NCBI RefSeq assembly: GCF_024158915.1
Contig: NZ_JAMZGF010000011.1
Span: forward strand, 1 to 64,000
Length of the DNA stretch: 64,000 nt
Direction of reading: 5' to 3'
Source of the DNA: Chryseobacterium sp. S0630
GTDB lineage: Bacteria; Bacteroidota; Bacteroidia; Flavobacteriales; Weeksellaceae
Shown here: positions 33,771-39,502 of the stretch, piece after piece
How the letters are laid out: every line of letters starts with the position of its first letter
Numbering within the stretch: the first letter of the stretch is position 1
Program-made: the position numbers and the translations under genes
The notes under the pieces: model-generated
The model's input: the letters and a program-made list of their open reading frames with translations, nothing else
Database searches by the model: none
What the model was told of the DNA's origin: nothing

Positions 33771-34058
33771 ATGAAAAAACTTATCTTAAGCGGCATTGCA
33801 GCATCAGCATTTCTGGTGTCATGCGGACCAAAAAGTGTGGCTGTAACAGGCCCAAAGTATACTTCATCTGAGCAATTAACACAAGGAAAGACCATTTTTG
33901 AGAACTCCTGCGCAAAGTGTCATAAGCTTCCAGAACCAACCAAGCATGACGATAAGGGATGGATCAACACTTTAAGCCGAATGGCTCCAAAGGCTAAGCT
34001 TACTGATGATCAGCATCAAATGGTGTATGATTATCTGATCTCTGTGAATAAAAAATAA
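33771..34058 (+). CDS. Small c-type cytochrome lipoprotein (copy 2)
   Basis: A 95-residue paralogue of the preceding gene with the same plan: lipoprotein signal (LVSC-GPK), short linker, QGKTIFENSCAKCHKLPEP haem site and an SRMAPKAKLTDDQHQ segment with the probable Met ligand. The shared blocks point to tandem duplication; the linker after the lipid Cys is shorter and less Thr/Ser-rich than in copy 1. The stop codon lies inside the terminator stem. Confidence 0.85.
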   Translation: MKKLILSGIAASAFLVSCGPKSVAVTGPKYTSSEQLTQGKTIFENSCAKCHKLPEPTKHDDKGWINTLSRMAPKAKLTDDQHQMVYDYLISVNKK

Positions 34059-34085
34059 GCTTTCTAACGAAAGCTTATTTCTTTT
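34053..34085. terminator. Bidirectional terminator
   Basis: AAATAAGCTTTC/GAAAGCTTATTT, 12-bp perfect stem with a 4-nt loop. The minus strand exits into TTTTTTATT and the plus strand into TTTCTTTT. It ends the cytochrome pair and the rtcB-prfH operon. Confidence 0.85.
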
Positions 34086-34106
34086 AATTAAGTAACTCAA
34101 AACAGA

Positions 34107-34634
34107 TTATTCTGTCTTTTTTACGGTTCTTGTTCTGGTTACTTTTCCTTTGACTAATTTTTCCCTGTCTTCAATGATTTCAAGTGCAGCTCTGTTATAA
34201 GCAAATTTTTTAGCTTCTTTAAGGGCGGCCAAAGCCTGTTTGTATTCAAATTTTCTTTCCTGAAGAAGGGACAGACAGTTCAGGATTTCCGACTTATCAA
34301 TTCCTTTTATCTTTAAAGCGAATTCAATTAATTTTTCTGCTTCTTTGTAATCTTCATTACTCAAAAGACACTCAATGTAATATTTAGGAGTATTGATATT
34401 TCCGATATTACTCTGCATGGCTTCATCAAAGTATCTTTTTGCAGTTTCATAATCTTTCAATTCCTCCGAATACACTCTTCCCATCAGACAAAGGCTGTCT
34501 GCATCTTCTGGTTCGTAGGATAAAGCATAGTTTAGCGCATCCATGCATTCAGAAAGATTGAATGGGAAGTAGTCCAGCGCTTCAAAATAATATTTACTTT
34601 TAGTTAAGGTCATTTCTGTAGTTTTTGAGTTCAT
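34107..34634 (-). CDS. TPR repeat protein, last gene of the rtcB-prfH block
   Basis: A 175-residue soluble protein with tetratricopeptide-like helical repeats (ALNYALSYEPEDADSLCLMGRVYSEELKDYETAKRYFDEAM and two further degenerate units) and a basic C-terminal tail (VKGKVTRTRTVKKTE). Its start overlaps the end of prfH by 35 bases (or 14 if the second ATG at 34613 is used), so it is translationally coupled to the release factor. TPRs are protein-docking modules; what it binds is unknown. It is the last gene before a strong terminator. Confidence 0.8.
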   Translation of the reverse strand: MNSKTTEMTLTKSKYYFEALDYFPFNLSECMDALNYALSYEPEDADSLCLMGRVYSEELKDYETAKRYFDEAMQSNIGNINTPKYYIECLLSNEDYKEAEKLIEFALKIKGIDKSEILNCLSLLQERKFEYKQALAALKEAKKFAYNRAALEIIEDREKLVKGKVTRTRTVKKTE

Positions 34635-35298
34635 TTTTCAAGGCATTTCTTTGTTTTTTGAATGTCCTGTCTTCGTAATTCTTTTTAAAATCTGTTCCTG
34701 AAAATGTACGAACCGGATTTCCGCGCTCTACCTGCATCTGGAGAGACCAGGTTTCTTTCAGTTTTCTTTCCAGTTGCTGGATATAAACTGCCATTACCTT
34801 TTCTTTAAGTCTGATAATGGATAGTTTTTTATTATCCAGCTGTGAACGGGAATCCTGTACAAAAACAGTCTCGTTGGTAGGGATATAAGTGGCACGTACA
34901 GCGGTATTCACCTTATTTACGTTTTGTCCTCCGCTTCCCTGGCTTCTTGCGGTCTGAAACCGGATATCTTTTTCATTGAAATCAATCATTTTTATATTTT
35001 CAAGTTCAAAAATTCCGATAAACCAATTGCTTCTTTTATGAAGTTTCCTGAATGTACTTTTTCCTATCCAGCAAACGCTTCCCAGCCAGCTTTTTAAAAA
35101 CGAGGTCAAGTCTTTTCCTTTTAAAAGAAGGGTAACTGATTTTAGTGTCAGATTTTCATCCCCGTTTTCCCGATGTATGATTTCGTATTCTATTGTATTG
35201 TGTTTTGCCTCTTCAAGAAAGGTCTTCAGAACCTTGGCTACTACCCACTGGCATTCTAAAGGACCTCTTCCTGAAGTGATCTGTATTAATTTTTCCAT
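34600..35298 (-). CDS. prfH: Peptide chain release factor H
   Basis: A 232-residue release-factor homologue without the stop-codon recognition domain. The N-terminal part (ITSGRGPLECQWVVAKVL, GSVCWIG, NWFIGIFE) matches PrfH rather than PrfA/B. The catalytic peptidyl-hydrolysis motif [20 protein letters not shown] is near residue 121, and RGNPVRTFSG near the C-terminus is also a PrfH feature. PrfH releases nascent chains from ribosomes damaged in the 16S decoding centre so that RtcB can reseal the RNA (known from the E. coli RtcB2-PrfH pair). The start is 3 bases after the stop of the nucleotidyltransferase-like gene. Confidence 0.93.
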   Translation of the reverse strand: MEKLIQITSGRGPLECQWVVAKVLKTFLEEAKHNTIEYEIIHRENGDENLTLKSVTLLLKGKDLTSFLKSWLGSVCWIGKSTFRKLHKRSNWFIGIFELENIKMIDFNEKDIRFQTARSQGSGGQNVNKVNTAVRATYIPTNETVFVQDSRSQLDNKKLSIIRLKEKVMAVYIQQLERKLKETWSLQMQVERGNPVRTFSGTDFKKNYEDRTFKKQRNALKNELKNYRNDLN

Positions 35299-35301
35299 TT
35301 T

Positions 35302-35847
35302 TTATATTGGCATTTTGCTTAATAAAGGGCTTCCTACCGGATTTATTCCCTTTTCTAATAGTTCTTTTGCGGCCATCACTGCCCAGCACTTATCACTGGA
35401 GTGGATATTTCTGTAAAAAGAAAGTAAAATATCAGGCCTCACAACGGTAAAACCATTGGCTTCAATTGTCTTTAGATCATCTCTTTCAAAGAAGTCTATG
35501 GTAATTCTGTGGAATTTTTCATTTTCCAGCTCAACAGTCTTTTCATATCTGCGAAAGTTTTCTTCACTCGGCAGATGGTCATATCGGGTCCAGACTTTCT
35601 GGAATCCTTCCTGCTGAAGAATGATCACTACTTCTGCAACATTTTCTTTTTTTACAAAAACATCAATATCCTTGTGGTCATGGGCATGTTTGTATTCTGT
35701 ATGTTCTTTTTCTGACATGAAATGCCAAGCCCAGCCACCTGATATAATGACTTTATCTTTTAATATATTTAAAATTTCGAGCCCTAACCGAATTCTGAAT
35801 TCCGGCCAGACTTCACCATATCGTTTTATGTTATGTGGTGCTCCCAT
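35302..35847 (-). CDS. Nucleotidyltransferase-like protein
   Basis: A 181-residue soluble protein with the signature of a minimal nucleotidyltransferase fold: ISGGWAWHF near residue 35 (the GG motif), then HKDIDVFV near 59 with the two metal-binding Asp, and a third acidic position possible in ITIDFFERDD near 118. Similar patterns occur in lincosamide/aminoglycoside nucleotidyltransferases and in tRNA-type NTases. It sits between rtcB and prfH, 3 bases before prfH, so an RNA- or nucleotide-end-modifying role in RNA repair is an attractive inference. An antibiotic-resistance or toxin/antitoxin NTase role is also possible. Confidence 0.75.
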   Translation of the reverse strand: MGAPHNIKRYGEVWPEFRIRLGLEILNILKDKVIISGGWAWHFMSEKEHTEYKHAHDHKDIDVFVKKENVAEVVIILQQEGFQKVWTRYDHLPSEENFRRYEKTVELENEKFHRITIDFFERDDLKTIEANGFTVVRPDILLSFYRNIHSSDKCWAVMAAKELLEKGINPVGSPLLSKMPI

Positions 35848-35908
35848 TTTTTTGTTTTTTTAAATTGAATATTCAAAACCTTATAGACTTTAAAATATTT
35901 CTTTGTTA

Positions 35909-35939
35909 AACCTTATAGGTTTTTGAAACCTATAAGGTT
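35909..35939. repeat. Intra-operon palindrome
   Basis: AACCTTATAGGTTT/AAACCTATAAGGTT, 14-bp perfect stem with a 3-nt loop, between rtcB and the nucleotidyltransferase gene. A partial copy (ACCTTATAGACTTT) precedes it. No T-run follows, so it is not a standard terminator; it may be an RNA-processing or mobile-repeat element. Confidence 0.7.
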
Positions 35940-35956
35940 GTAAAGTATAAGGCTAA

Positions 35957-37348
35957 TTACTTATCCATTCTCACAATTCTCGGCTGGAATGTTCCCAGAA
36001 TATCTACCAGCTCACTCTGCGCATTCATCACCTCATTAATGTCTTTGTAGGCCATTGGTGCTTCTTCTGCATTTCCGCCCATCAATGTGACATTTTTCAG
36101 TTTCAGTTCTTTTTTGATATCATGCTGAGTGAAAAGACTTCTGCATTCTCCTCTTGAATGGGCTCTTCCTGCACCATGTGATGCTGAATTCAAAGATTCA
36201 GGATTTCCTTTTCCGCGAACGATAAATCCTTTTGCAGTCATCGATCCTGGAATCATTCCCAATTCGTTTTCATTAGCAGGAGTAGCTCCTTTTCGATGAA
36301 CAATCACTTCTTTTCCGTTATGAATTTCTTTCCACGCAAAATTGTGATGGTTCTCAATTCTCGCTTTTACTCTTCCACCGACTGCTTTTACAAGCCTTCT
36401 GTGAATATCATCGTGACAGGCTGAAGCATAATCTCCGGCAAGGTTCATTGCGGTCCAGTATTCCAGTCCAAGATGGGTACTAAGGTCCAGCCATGCGAAG
36501 TTTTGAGCTTCTTTCGGTAAAGGACATTGTTCCGTTGCCATTCTTGAATAATACTGTGCGATTTCTGCTCCCAGACCTCTCGAGCCACTGTGAGAAAGTA
36601 TTCCCAGATATTTTCCTTTTGGAAGGCCAATTTGTTCGTCTTCTTCAGTGATTTCCACTTCCCCGAATTCTACAAAGTGATTTCCTCCACCTGAGGATCC
36701 CATCTGTTTGATGGCTTTTCCCTTTAATCTTCTTAGGATCGGGATCATATCGAATGTATCTCTGTCGAAAATCTCATGATCTATGTGAGATTTATGAGTT
36801 TCATACATTCCAAATTTTGTATGTTCAGCAAGCGCTTTTTCATATTTATCTCTTGCTCCTTCAAGATATGAAACTGGTGTATCCAAAATACTGAGGCTCA
36901 TTCTGCAGCCAATATCCATTCCTACTCCATAAGGGATTACGGCATTTTCTACGGCCAGAACTCCTCCTATGGGAAGCCCATACCCGCTGTGGGCATCCGG
37001 CATTAATGCTCCCTGAGTAGAGATAGGCAGTTTCAAAGCTGTGTATAACTGATTTTTTGCCTCTTCTGAAATATTGTTTCCAAAAATCTGAAAGGAAGCA
37101 CGCTGTGAATTCAGCATTCTTTTTTCTGTTTTTTTGGATGAAAGCAGGGTTTCTGCGATTTGTCCGAAAGTCAGATCTTTTTCAAATTCTTCCGGATTCA
37201 GCAGAATTTCCTTTAAAAGAGATTTTACGTGGTGAATATTTTTCGTTGCAAAATTTCTTTTCATGACTTCCAATGCTACGTTTACGCTTTGGTTATTGGG
37301 ATAGCCCAGTTTTAATATATCTTTTCCTTTTAGTTTTAAATTTCCCAT
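35957..37348 (-). CDS. rtcB: RNA-splicing ligase RtcB
   Basis: A 463-residue GTP/Mn2+-dependent ligase that joins a 2',3'-cyclic phosphate or 3'-phosphate to a 5'-OH RNA end. Visible family blocks are MPDAHSGYGLPIGGV, PYGVGMDIGCRM with the metal Cys, GSSGGGNHFVEFG, GILSHSGSRGLG, VHRKGATPA, and SASHGAGRAHSR, which holds the guanylated His. The length fits the family. It is followed by the NTase-like gene and prfH on the same strand; this RtcB-PrfH pairing is the known ribosome-repair arrangement. Confidence 0.97.
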   Translation of the reverse strand: MGNLKLKGKDILKLGYPNNQSVNVALEVMKRNFATKNIHHVKSLLKEILLNPEEFEKDLTFGQIAETLLSSKKTEKRMLNSQRASFQIFGNNISEEAKNQLYTALKLPISTQGALMPDAHSGYGLPIGGVLAVENAVIPYGVGMDIGCRMSLSILDTPVSYLEGARDKYEKALAEHTKFGMYETHKSHIDHEIFDRDTFDMIPILRRLKGKAIKQMGSSGGGNHFVEFGEVEITEEDEQIGLPKGKYLGILSHSGSRGLGAEIAQYYSRMATEQCPLPKEAQNFAWLDLSTHLGLEYWTAMNLAGDYASACHDDIHRRLVKAVGGRVKARIENHHNFAWKEIHNGKEVIVHRKGATPANENELGMIPGSMTAKGFIVRGKGNPESLNSASHGAGRAHSRGECRSLFTQHDIKKELKLKNVTLMGGNAEEAPMAYKDINEVMNAQSELVDILGTFQPRIVRMDK

Positions 37349-37375
37349 TGTTTTTGTTTTAAATAACAGTTGGAC

Positions 37376-38110
37376 TTATTCGTCCTGTAAGCTTTCTGCA
37401 ATTTCTGTTGCAGACATTGTGCAGGTTGCATATTTCCTGCTTTTGATAAGTTTTCTTTGATACTTTTCTTTCCATGGATTCGACTTACCTAGAATAGTCT
37501 TGTGCATAATCCCTATCACCTTATACTGTCCCAAATAGGAATCCAGCGCTGCATATTCTTTTTCCAGCTCCAAATCCAAGGGTTTGTAATGGGTAATCAT
37601 ATTGGGTTTTACCCTCAAAGTAAACCTCCATGGTTCAGTAAATTTGTAGTAGATTCCGAATATCTTATTGACAGGACAATAATCTTCTTTCTTTTCAAAA
37701 TATTGTCTTTCTCTGTCGGTAAACTCTAATTTTGGATAATTCCAGGAAAATGAAGTAATATACCTGAGCTTCTGCTCTCTTTCTACATATATCTTTCTTC
37801 CGAACTTTCTTTTCTTTTTCAGAAATCTTCGGTTATCAGAATACATATAGGTATTTATCTTCTTTAAAATACCTTCGAAAAAATCTCCGTCTTTGGATTG
37901 TTTTACATCCTCTCTTACAACAAAGAATCTTACAAATCCTTTTTGATAGGGTTTATCCAATGGTATCAACGGAAGATTTCTTCTCATTTTCCAGAGTTCT
38001 CTACTACGTTTGTATTTTGTTCTTATCTGCTTTTCTACATCTTTTCTAATTGTTCTTTTTCTGCTTCTTACGCTTCTCAGGCGGAAATGCAGAAGGTTAT
38101 CATTTTCCAT
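37376..38110 (-). CDS. Highly basic protein of unknown function, first gene of the rtcB block
   Basis: A 244-residue protein (ATG 38110; a TTG start at 38167 would add 19 residues) very rich in Lys and Arg, especially the first 35 residues (RLRSVRSRKRTIRKDVEK) and the C-terminal KEKYQRKLIKSRK. There is no signal peptide, membrane segment or recognised motif, and only scattered Cys. The base-rich composition suggests RNA or ribosome binding. It ends 27 bases before rtcB on the same strand. It is not among the genes I know from described RtcB-PrfH pairs, so it is a candidate extra component. Function unknown. Confidence 0.7.
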   Translation of the reverse strand: MENDNLLHFRLRSVRSRKRTIRKDVEKQIRTKYKRSRELWKMRRNLPLIPLDKPYQKGFVRFFVVREDVKQSKDGDFFEGILKKINTYMYSDNRRFLKKKRKFGRKIYVEREQKLRYITSFSWNYPKLEFTDRERQYFEKKEDYCPVNKIFGIYYKFTEPWRFTLRVKPNMITHYKPLDLELEKEYAALDSYLGQYKVIGIMHKTILGKSNPWKEKYQRKLIKSRKYATCTMSATEIAESLQDE

Positions 38111-38221
38111 TGTGAACAGAAGTCTGATGTGAGATCGTAGAAACCAGGTTCTTTTTTTCTCACACAACTTTTAATCAACTAAAATATTAGTTGAATGGAT
38201 TAATAATAGACGGAATAGTTC

Positions 38222-38238
38222 TGAGGAATGAACCTCAT
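38222..38238 (-). other. Short hairpin in the leader of the rtcB block
   Basis: TGAGG/CCTCA stem with a 6-nt loop between the terminator at 38304-38337 and the basic-protein gene. A second one, CAACTAA/TTAGTTG, follows at 38176-38193. They could belong to a leader RNA. Confidence 0.35.
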
Positions 38239-38303
38239 CCTATTTTGCCTTTAATGACACTAAAAAAGATTTCGGGGAAACTTGAAGTTTGAAATATTGC
38301 GCA

Positions 38304-38337
38304 ATAAAAAACCCGAAATCTCTACGACTTCGGGTTC
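38304..38337 (-). terminator. Strong terminator, end of small RNA unit
   Basis: ACCCGAAGTC/GATTTCGGGT (10 bp with one mismatch, 5-nt loop), followed on the minus strand by TTTTTTATT. Confidence 0.85.
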
Positions 38338-38478
38338 TGATATTTCATTGTACTGTTATTCTAAGAATGTACCAAACCGCGAAGCCTTACCACCATAAGT
38401 GGCAATCCAACTGTAGAATTCTGTTTTGTTCTGAACATTGCTTCGTCGTTTTTTATTGGTTAAACTTGATTTTCAGGT
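38305..38478 (-). ncRNA. Candidate structured small RNA or leader, about 170 nt
   Basis: A minus-strand unit with its own promoter and terminator and no gene of normal size. Inside, TTGCCAC-TTATG-GTGGTAA makes a perfect 7-bp hairpin (one G-U), CGAAGC upstream can pair with GCTTCG downstream, and GTACATTCT/AGAATAACAGTAC makes another stem. It also contains a 25-codon ORF (38364-38438, start ATG, stop TAG) rich in Val and Leu, reading MFRTKQNSTVG at its start. This could be a stand-alone sRNA, or an attenuator leader for the basic-protein/rtcB operon downstream. Exact ends are estimates. Confidence 0.55.
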
Positions 38479-38479
38479 G

Positions 38480-38509
38480 CAAATATATACATTTTTCTGA
38501 TAATCAAAA
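38480..38509 (-). promoter_or_regulatory. Promoter of the small RNA unit
   Basis: The minus strand has -33 TTTTG (38505-38509), 17 bases, then -7 TATATTTG (38480-38487) and C. This is one of the best flavobacterial promoter matches in the window. Confidence 0.75.
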
Positions 38510-38518
38510 TATTTTTTT

Positions 38519-39502
38519 TCACTTAAGGTGAATAATACTGAGAAAAATGGCATCAATTACCTTCGTCATTCGTTTTGTATCCAGCGTTTCCAAAGTATCG
38601 GTAGGTTCATGATAGTTTTTGTTTCTGAAGAAGGATGTGTCGGTGATCATGAGTGCAGGAAAGTCGAAATTCCAATAATTCAGATGGTCAGAATAGTCTA
38701 TTCCTGCTACGAATTTGGGTGCTGAGAACGTTTCTGTTTTGATCTGTTGGGAATCTTTGAAGTTTCCTATAAAGTTTCTTACAAAAGGTCCTGCGCCAGT
38801 TATTTTTTTAACCAGAGTAATAAAATTTCCCTGATCACCATATATCCAGGAAAGAATACTTATAGGAAAACTCTGAGAACCTTTTTCATCACGGAAATAA
38901 CCTATCATTTCTACGCTTGCCATTCCATAGACATCAATTTTGTTGTCTTTTAAATATTTTGCATGGATATAGCTTCCCATATTTTCGGTTCTGAAATAAG
39001 GTGGCTCTTCCAGCGTATAAGCAACTAAATCTACTCTGTACTTCAGCTTCTGTCCTTTGAGCATTCTTGCAAGCTCCAGAAGAGCAGTAACTCCGGTTGC
39101 GTTGTCGTCTGCTCCCTGCTGATCGCCACAAACATCATAATGAGCACCTATAATAATCCGTTTGGCATTTTCCGGACCAAAAGAAGTAATTACATTTTTA
39201 TATACTTTACCGTCAACTTTATATTCCTGAAAAGTGGTACTGTCTCCATAAGTAGCAAACGTCTGATGAATATAATCTGCAACAGCATTTAGCTGATCAA
39301 TATTTTTATGATTTCTAAACTGTGGAGTTTGGGTAAGTGCCGTCAAATGTTTTTTAACAAGACTGGTATCCGCAATTATTGTGGAACTGGGTACTGATCT
39401 GTTTTTCTTTATTGAACCTAGCAAAAAAACTCCTGTAATAACAAATAAGCCTACGAAAAGAAACAGTTTTTTCCTCGTAGGCTTTATATTTTTAAAATTC
39501 AC
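38519..39502 (-). CDS. M28 family metallopeptidase
   Basis: A 327-residue exported aminopeptidase-type enzyme with an N-terminal signal anchor (about 11-30). The di-zinc site is seen as GAHYDVCGDQQGADDNATG (His-x-Asp and the following Asp) near residue 147-165, the Glu pair in YTLEEPPYF near 188, an Asp/Glu in ASVEMIGYF and the last His in DYSDHLNYW near 275. The start is GTG. It probably hydrolyses peptides in the periplasm or at the surface. The next gene downstream on the strand is separated by a promoter and the small RNA unit. Confidence 0.92.
   Translation of the reverse strand: MNFKNIKPTRKKLFLFVGLFVITGVFLLGSIKKNRSVPSSTIIADTSLVKKHLTALTQTPQFRNHKNIDQLNAVADYIHQTFATYGDSTTFQEYKVDGKVYKNVITSFGPENAKRIIIGAHYDVCGDQQGADDNATGVTALLELARMLKGQKLKYRVDLVAYTLEEPPYFRTENMGSYIHAKYLKDNKIDVYGMASVEMIGYFRDEKGSQSFPISILSWIYGDQGNFITLVKKITGAGPFVRNFIGNFKDSQQIKTETFSAPKFVAGIDYSDHLNYWNFDFPALMITDTSFFRNKNYHEPTDTLETLDTKRMTKVIDAIFLSIIHLK

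Follow-up and report, generated by a model that had tools for sequence, protein, structure and literature searches.

The rtcB-prfH operon and the element upstream of it

This study concerns a 64,000-nt stretch of Chryseobacterium sp. S0630 DNA (assembly GCF_024158915.1, contig NZ_JAMZGF010000011.1, positions 1 to 64,000; hereafter the window), and within it an operon built around rtcB, encoding an RNA ligase, and prfH, encoding release factor H, together with the leader that precedes it. Five open reading frames (ORFs) were confirmed on the minus strand at 34107–38110, in the order basic protein, rtcB, nucleotidyltransferase-like protein (NTase), prfH and TPR protein. The genes and the terminator that follows them were as follows.

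37376..38110, minus strand: basic (charged) protein, 244 residues, without a significant family match
35957..37348, minus strand: rtcB, RtcB-family RNA ligase, 463 residues; PF01139, 270 bits, 4.6e-80
35302..35847, minus strand: Pol-beta-fold NTase, 181 residues; acids D60, D62 and D118
34600..35298, minus strand: prfH, 232 residues, release factor H carrying a GGQ motif and a C-terminal basic tail; TIGR03072, 204.3 bits (cut-off 166.65)
34107..34613, minus strand: TPR protein, 168 residues from the usual start of its relatives, 175 residues from the first ATG at 34634
34053..34080, no strand assigned (listed on the plus strand): convergent terminator closing the operon, with a near-symmetrical stem

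A first-pass annotation made from the sequence had given these five genes in this order on one strand, and ORF calls and family matches bore this out. Its spacings of 27, 109 and 3 nt were correct, the overlap of prfH with the TPR gene was found as well (35 nt with the first ATG, 14 nt with the start at 34613), and the terminator that it described as closing the operon is real. The extent that it gave, 34107–38110, placed the genes correctly but was too short, since a conserved leader at 38306–38508 belongs to the operon. The conserved element upstream of the genes spans 190 nt (38291–38480), and the following parts were assigned.

38480..38508, minus strand: leader promoter of the Bacteroidota type, TTTG (38505–38508), 17 nt, TATATTTG (38480–38487)
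38441..38446, minus strand: region 1, ACGAAG, just 5' of the leader start codon, pairing with region 2
38361..38438, minus strand: leader peptide ORF, 25 codons, MFRTKQNSTVGLPLMVVRLRGLVHS
38374..38386, minus strand: region 2, GGCTTCG-C-GGTTT, Leu-Arg-Gly codons, antiterminator strand
38326..38336, minus strand: region 3, AACCCGAAGTC, 5' arm of the terminator and alternative partner of region 2
38306..38336, minus strand: attenuator terminator, a hairpin of regions 3 and 4 followed by a T-run, missed by a simple terminator scanner

Promoter and reading frame of the leader

The promoter was assigned with what we take to be the Bacteroidota promoter consensus. Among 119 distinct sequences upstream of leaders, [TAG]AnnTTTG occurred in 116, and in 114 of these it lay 43–52 nt before the leader ATG. 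The stricter TAnnTTTG was present in 105 of the 119 vs. 5 of 119 shuffled sequences, and a TTG was found 15–25 nt farther upstream of the promoter motif in 96.

A leader ORF was present in 138 of 139 leader matches (118 distinct leaders, 95 distinct leader ORFs). Its length was 25 codons in 116 cases, 27 in 14, 28 in six, and 29 and 24 in one each, and the stop codon was TAG in 133 of the 138. Variability at the three codon positions was 0.125, 0.127 and 0.220, third positions varying most, and pN/pS was 0.60 in frame (0.70 for codons 2–17) vs. 0.85–0.97 in the other frames. This conservation and codon pattern indicate that the short leader ORF is probably translated, as an attenuator requires. 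The 77 distinct leader peptides carried Phe at codon 2 in 69 cases, Leu-Arg at the pairing site in 75 and Leu-Arg-Gly in 71.

Inspection of these 77 peptides revealed no regulatory codon run common to them, and the downstream genes are not biosynthetic; both points speak against an ordinary amino-acid attenuator sensing the charging of one tRNA, which we regard as very improbable. That explanation draws on the architecture, which is the same as in amino-acid attenuators, clues to which are reported for Flavobacterium psychrophilum in the available text of PMC9723704, and on Thr_leader matches below threshold that fall on the leader terminator of two loci (L092 and L099). The flavobacterial amino-acid attenuators likewise combine a leader ORF with a terminator, but in the part of that article available they precede amino-acid operons. 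The same source gives 64 structured 5' regions for F. psychrophilum, and the main text as available leaves rtcB unmentioned.

Mutually exclusive helices in the leader

Covariation was tested on 24 aligned leaders from several families against 500 shuffles. In the helix of regions 2 and 3, 91.2% of cells were paired and 24 cells were changed on both sides vs. a shuffle mean of 9.6 (reached in 0 of 500); the covariation score was 0.270 vs. 0.148 in the shuffles, none of which was as high, and sliding the helix by one column lowered pairing to 57%. The terminator helix of regions 3 and 4 had 97.7% of cells paired and 19 cells changed on both sides vs. 4.8 (0 of 500), with a covariation score of 0.258 vs. 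0.139 (0 of 500). Related sequences can exceed shuffles without any structure, an objection answered in part by the slide control and by the three-way match of regions 2, 3 and 4, which read GGTTT/CCAAA/GGTTT in Chryseobacterium and GGCTT/CCGAA/GGCTT in Flavobacterium (genera assigned by their similarity to named loci), GACTT/CTGAA/GACTT in locus L067 and GATTA/CTAAT/GATTT in locus L068.

Regions 1 and 2 were examined in segments cut at these regions and folded to minimum free energy. All 94 distinct segments paired at least three of the four positions of GAAG:CTTC, with a mean z of −1.96; one leader without the region 1 motif (L059) was dropped. The whole leader of the window folds at z −3.71. 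The leader is thereby predicted to contain an intrinsic terminator and a mutually exclusive antiterminator that share one strand, region 3.

Distribution and specificity of the leader

The leader profile was built iteratively from its own matches and matched 139 sequences once each, three of which (the window, L069 and L192) are the same place. The genome and locus sets used here and below overlap, so that partly the same genomes are counted in more than one set. Of 141 operon loci, 136 carry the leader upstream: 33 of the 34 loci L031–L064 (the miss is a contig end), all four of L065–L068, all 21 of L080–L100, neither of L101 and L102, and 78 of the 80 loci L111–L190. Each of 36 genomes of the genus held one match.

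Among 20 Flavobacterium-type genomes picked by prfH status, BLAST gave a full-length leader match for all 13 that carry prfH and for none of the 7 that do not; shorter, terminator-length matches occurred in both kinds. Across 395 Bacteroidota genomes, 28 of which have prfH over the cut-off, the covariance model R1 found matches in 29. The 26 strong matches (E 1.5e-14 or better) fell in exactly the 26 genomes of the same order with prfH over the cut-off, 13 of which are themselves represented by a row in R1. In the remaining two prfH-positive genomes (G074 and G177), R1 gave no leader match. A second full-length R1 match in G052 was weak (2.8e-4), and terminator-length R1 matches were seen in G299, G052 and G276. 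With Rfam 15, no family exceeded its cut-off in window positions 34000–38600 (BTnc005, bantam and Flavo-1 were all below), and four other loci gave Flavo-1, three matches being at or over the cut-off and away from the leader.

The palindrome between the leader and the first gene

One further conserved feature lies between the attenuator and the first gene.

38175..38194, minus strand: palindrome TCAACTAA-N4-TTAGTTGA, operator or RNA hairpin

Its 12-base core (TCAACT-N8-AGTTGA) was exact in 23 of 30 genomes of the genus, directly upstream of the operon in 21, and the same 30 genomes held the core at 7 other places. In 43 distinct sequences of the 20-mer, 18 transitions kept pairing vs. 6 that broke it, which is suggestive only, and an alignment fold of this part of the leader gave 4 pairs and no covariation. 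The stretch 3' of the palindrome is highly variable in sequence and folded with a mean z of −2.61 (58 leaders) vs. −0.30 (192 controls), its reverse complement with −2.27. The palindrome and hairpin downstream of the attenuator (38128–38194) may add a second layer of control. A second inverted repeat was noted at 38128–38166, also between the attenuator and the first gene, and a comparable hairpin, TTTATC[CT]-N4/5-[GA]GATAAA, was seen in several Flavobacterium-type loci.

The position of the palindrome, together with a strong terminator and the 195 nt that separate the terminator from the first gene, could also be explained if the upstream element were an independent, self-terminated small-RNA gene and the operon were driven from another promoter farther downstream, perhaps one located at the palindrome itself. 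We regard this as improbable, as region 2, which lies within the ORF, covaries with the terminator arm, a feature needless for a small RNA with a plain terminator, and the leader accompanies the operon in two families.

Proposed attenuation mechanism

From these comparisons of sequence, it appears rather likely that the flavobacterial RtcB-PrfH rescue-and-repair operon is under ribosome-mediated transcription attenuation. In a healthy cell, ribosomes would reach the leader stop codon and the terminator would form because region 2, which sits 11–23 nt before that codon, is covered. With no ribosome on the leader, regions 1 and 2 would pair and the terminator would form too. A ribosome stalled on the first codons would instead cover region 1, region 2 would capture region 3 and the polymerase would read into the operon. 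The switch would be on only if ribosomes start and then stall early, which would suit an operon whose products rescue and repair ribosomes with a damaged decoding centre. A ribosome cut there, as by colicin E3-type damage, would be able to initiate but poor at elongation, so that damage would induce repair. PrfH would free the stalled chain and RtcB would reseal the 16S rRNA, as in experiments with the Escherichia coli pair; the NTase would most likely act on trimmed RNA 3' ends ahead of ligation, and the basic, TPR and (in other operons) zinc-ribbon proteins would bind rRNA or dock the parts, roles for the accessory proteins that PMC6514570 proposed as well.

Several observations weigh against this attenuation model. 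For either helix, two of five covariation measures were not above the shuffles: the double-change pairs (4 and 3) and the further pair types (10 and 5) were reached in 318, 83, 439 and 446 of the 500 shuffles, in this order. A coarse count over 22 distinct triples of regions 2, 3 and 4, from 135 leaders (three more were dropped as regions 3 and 4 were not located), gave 91 of 110 cells paired vs. a shuffled mean of 83.5 and maximum of 93, which is weak. Purifying selection on the leader codons is moderate, also within codons 2–17. The step in which damaged ribosomes initiate and then stall early is drawn from general knowledge, and the promoter of the operon might lie downstream of the terminator, in the region of the palindrome. 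No leader is present at L101 and L102, the two prfH loci from outside the order, and L186 and L188, which gave no match, have another gene in its place.

Nor is the leader strictly tied to prfH, as three prfH-negative genomes gave weaker full-length R1 matches, two of them real-looking. One of the two, in G280 (9.0e-7, L208), lies before a TPR gene of the family; the other, in G389 (2.2e-6, L209), one of the seven genomes for which BLAST had given no full-length match, lies before a PcfJ-like gene, an rtcB of the operon clade and a TPR gene. The third match (G084, 3.5e-4, L210) is at the end of a coding region and was judged spurious. The 481-residue product of the first L209 gene had been taken for a TROVE protein, wrongly, as Pfam assigns it as PcfJ-like. 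In the genus, G003 (L194, G003:C2:2862000-2874000) is without prfH and has kept the leader, the basic gene and rtcB. Leader-like elements without prfH thus still precede members of the operon gene set: basic-rtcB in G003, TPR in L208 and PcfJ-like-rtcB-TPR in L209.

Relation to known systems

The RtcB2-PrfH pair of E. coli was reportedly described by Tian et al. in 2022. As given in the available text of PMC9223846, it protects against colicin E3, its function in E. coli being the release of stalled ribosomes and the resealing of colicin E3-cut 16S rRNA; the signal that switches it on is not stated in that text. The operon of the window shares the order RtcB then PrfH. It differs from the E. 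coli system of two genes, for which the record viewed has no accessory genes, in that its PrfH carries a basic C-terminal tail and its RtcB scored 141.2 bits on the PrfH-linked model TIGR03073 (release_rtcB), below the cut-off of 271.8; because of this score, we do not call it RtcB2.

The first-pass annotation had taken the additional genes for undescribed members of the system. TPR, Pol-beta NTase, ZnR with a charged helix, and a further charged protein were already given as accessory genes of RFH-RtcB by Burroughs and Aravind (2019; PMC6514570), and the accessible part of that article proposes scaffold and RNA-end-repair roles for them that are much like those the annotation had inferred. 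The rtcB-prfH core and the accessory classes (NTase, TPR and charged helical protein) are common to those operons and the present one, the identity of the families being by description and class. The leader and attenuator, which that accessible part does not mention, set the present operon apart. The view of the locus as an undescribed variant therefore fails for the accessory gene classes; the upstream leader is apparently unreported, but the annotation had missed it. Its overall interpretation was partly supported: the gene set has been reported in kind, and it is the upstream RNA switch that is apparently new here. Among the matches listed, the open-access literature contained no Bacteroidota report of such a leader, which is not proof, as subscription papers lay outside the search.

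The closest parallel in control is in Pseudomonas aeruginosa, where, according to the available parts of PMC12057347 and PMC13041342, the leader peptide PA5471.1 attenuates armZ, an RtcB-like gene next to prfH, and a stall or an early amber codon induces. Both systems place an RtcB-like gene by prfH under a leader-peptide attenuator, the response to a stalled ribosome being known for PA5471.1. In those texts PA5471.1 is studied for the regulation of MexXY through ArmZ, and the 2025 review (PMC12057347, as available) states that this kind of regulation appears unique to MexXY. The flavobacterial leader has 24–29 codons and mostly Leu-Arg-Gly antiterminator codons, and is likened to PA5471.1 by architecture, not by sequence.

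The present leader points to a broader use of leader-peptide control among RtcB-PrfH operons. More generally, RtcB-PrfH operons could be damage-inducible through the damaged ribosome, the flavobacterial leader and PA5471.1 being one general design with the broken machine as sensor and other lineages having their own leaders, a proposal that we make tentatively, with slightly more doubt than confidence. The leader would link two literatures, that on ribosome repair and that on PA5471.1 in the control of P. aeruginosa aminoglycoside tolerance. If the proposal is true, ribosome damage would be read out by the damaged ribosome, and the position of armZ beside prfH would fit too. Covarying exclusive helices and a leader ORF before the operon in two families offer a concrete, cheap test of the inducing signal.

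In other Bacteroidota, short ORFs were noted upstream of rtcB-prfH at about −249 (L101), −223 (L102) and −208 (L191) from the first operon gene, reading MTEQFYISSLFIAA, MKHLTSISPLSLIA and MLVYHSNIAL, respectively; these are possible leaders of another type.

Gene content across genomes

PrfH was found in 35 of 36 genomes of the window genus; the remaining one is G003, and in G004 prfH is split over two contigs. In 39 genus loci (the window, L031–L064 and L080–L083), prfH was present in 39, rtcB in 38 (one locus meets a contig end), the TPR gene in 38, the NTase in 28, the basic gene in 24 and a zinc-ribbon gene in 5. Among 23 loci of other genera or families, 20 have the TPR gene, 10 the basic gene, 6 the zinc-ribbon gene and 4 the NTase. 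The most constant partner is therefore the TPR gene; the NTase, basic and zinc-ribbon genes are present in some operons and missing from others. The expectation of conserved five-gene synteny thus held insofar as the extra genes are conserved partners of rtcB and prfH, but not as a strict unit of five. The arrangement is more than chance, since the same order recurs in other genera and families.

A scan of genome contigs with the NTase alignment yielded 157 confirmed relatives. Among the best 80 of these, 73 are titled Chryseobacterium, and the NTase sits between an upstream rtcB and a downstream prfH in all 80 loci, in line with the prediction that it would adjoin them in other genomes; a few have a broken or cut gene (L126, L159, L185 and, at a contig end, L156). 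The 395 Bacteroidota genomes held 8 clear NTase matches, all beside prfH, and two further weak and partial ones (2.5e-4 and 8.2e-4) that are not. Of the 39 genus loci, 11 (including one truncated at a contig end) have no NTase, which shows only that it is dispensable.

Against plasmids, the NTase gave no match (phages were not searched with it). PrfH matched 10 records of the plasmid collection at E ≤ 1e-30, 8 of them from E. coli, and 68 records of the phage collection, all below 60% identity, the best at 37% over 87% of the query and at least one annotated as release factor 2.

A ZnR-like zinc-ribbon protein occurs in operons of relatives (L133, L137 and others). Two Chryseobacterium operons (L139 6553–7182 and L184 6554–7174) have an extra accessory gene of 209 and 206 residues, respectively, between the NTase and zinc-ribbon genes; the 209-residue product gave no Pfam match. 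In L058 (7847–8209, minus strand), one gene matches the start of the NTase over its opening codons (MGAPHNIKRY) and encodes the zinc-ribbon protein from there on, probably a deletion fusion. In G003, the 12 kb that were examined gave no NTase or TPR match. Intact rtcB is followed there by several partial copies of its own 3' end (about codons 419–463), which resemble scars left as genes were gained and lost behind rtcB.

Encoded proteins

The NTase motifs S36-G37-G38 (GGW), D60, D62 and D118 were invariant in 28 of 28 aligned sequences, so that the catalytic acids are intact, as the first-pass annotation had anticipated. Pfam scores were below cut-off and a sequence-profile search found no PDB match. 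The structure model (mean pLDDT 82.7) was nearest in fold to LnuA (Z 11.4, 2.9 Å over 130), followed by ANT(2'')-Ia (Z 11.1, 3.4 Å over 133), MenT1 (Z 9.9, 3.6 Å over 139) and MenT3 (Z 9.6, 4.2 Å over 157). The protein looks like an intact Pol-beta-type enzyme with putative nucleotidyl transfer activity. LnuA and ANT(2'')-Ia are antibiotic nucleotidyltransferases, and the NTase might accordingly act not on RNA ends but on a partner protein or on a ribosome-targeting antibiotic as a small-molecule substrate. This we consider unlikely, given the linkage of the NTase to rtcB-prfH and the almost equal closeness of MenT1 and MenT3, which we take to be tRNA-modifying.

The RtcB of the operon contains the motifs DIGC, GGGNHF, SGSRG, HRKGAT and HGAGR, presumably catalytic. 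A second, divergent RtcB is encoded in the same genome (G000:C11; L079 6862–8244), with 30% identity. It adjoins a gene for a WYL-domain regulator, its locus also holds a 584-residue protein without a Pfam match, and no leader of the operon type was found there; it is perhaps a separate RNA-repair locus.

A close solved relative of PrfH is named peptide chain release factor H (9mor and 9mq4, E 2.4e-97), and PrfH itself matches the RF2 model starting at position 119. The basic C-terminal tail of about 28 residues (window 34600–34700) is absent from the TPR-less loci L101 and L102. After 14 loci with a missing anchor motif had been set aside, the tail was found in 116 of 116 TPR-positive loci measured and in 5 of 7 TPR-negative ones, and the latter count led us to reject it as a marker of a TPR partner.

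The basic protein was modelled with a mean pLDDT of 73.3. Its fold search, a search for matches only, gave no Foldseek match at E ≤ 0.001 (best E 0.34) and a best VIA Z of 5.1, so that the protein may still have a known fold; no PDB match was found by sequence profile.

Other sequence elements

In Chryseobacterium-type leaders, the attenuator terminator includes GAAGTCGTA, which we take to be a sequence of the 16S decoding centre. A conserved rRNA decoy in the terminator was not supported, as Flavobacterium-type terminators differ there. Between rtcB and the NTase gene, a hairpin AACCTTATAGGTTT-n-AAACCTATAAGGTT at 35909–35939 gave a sub-threshold Flavo-1 match and is a dispersed repeat, present at 6 exact places in the genome.

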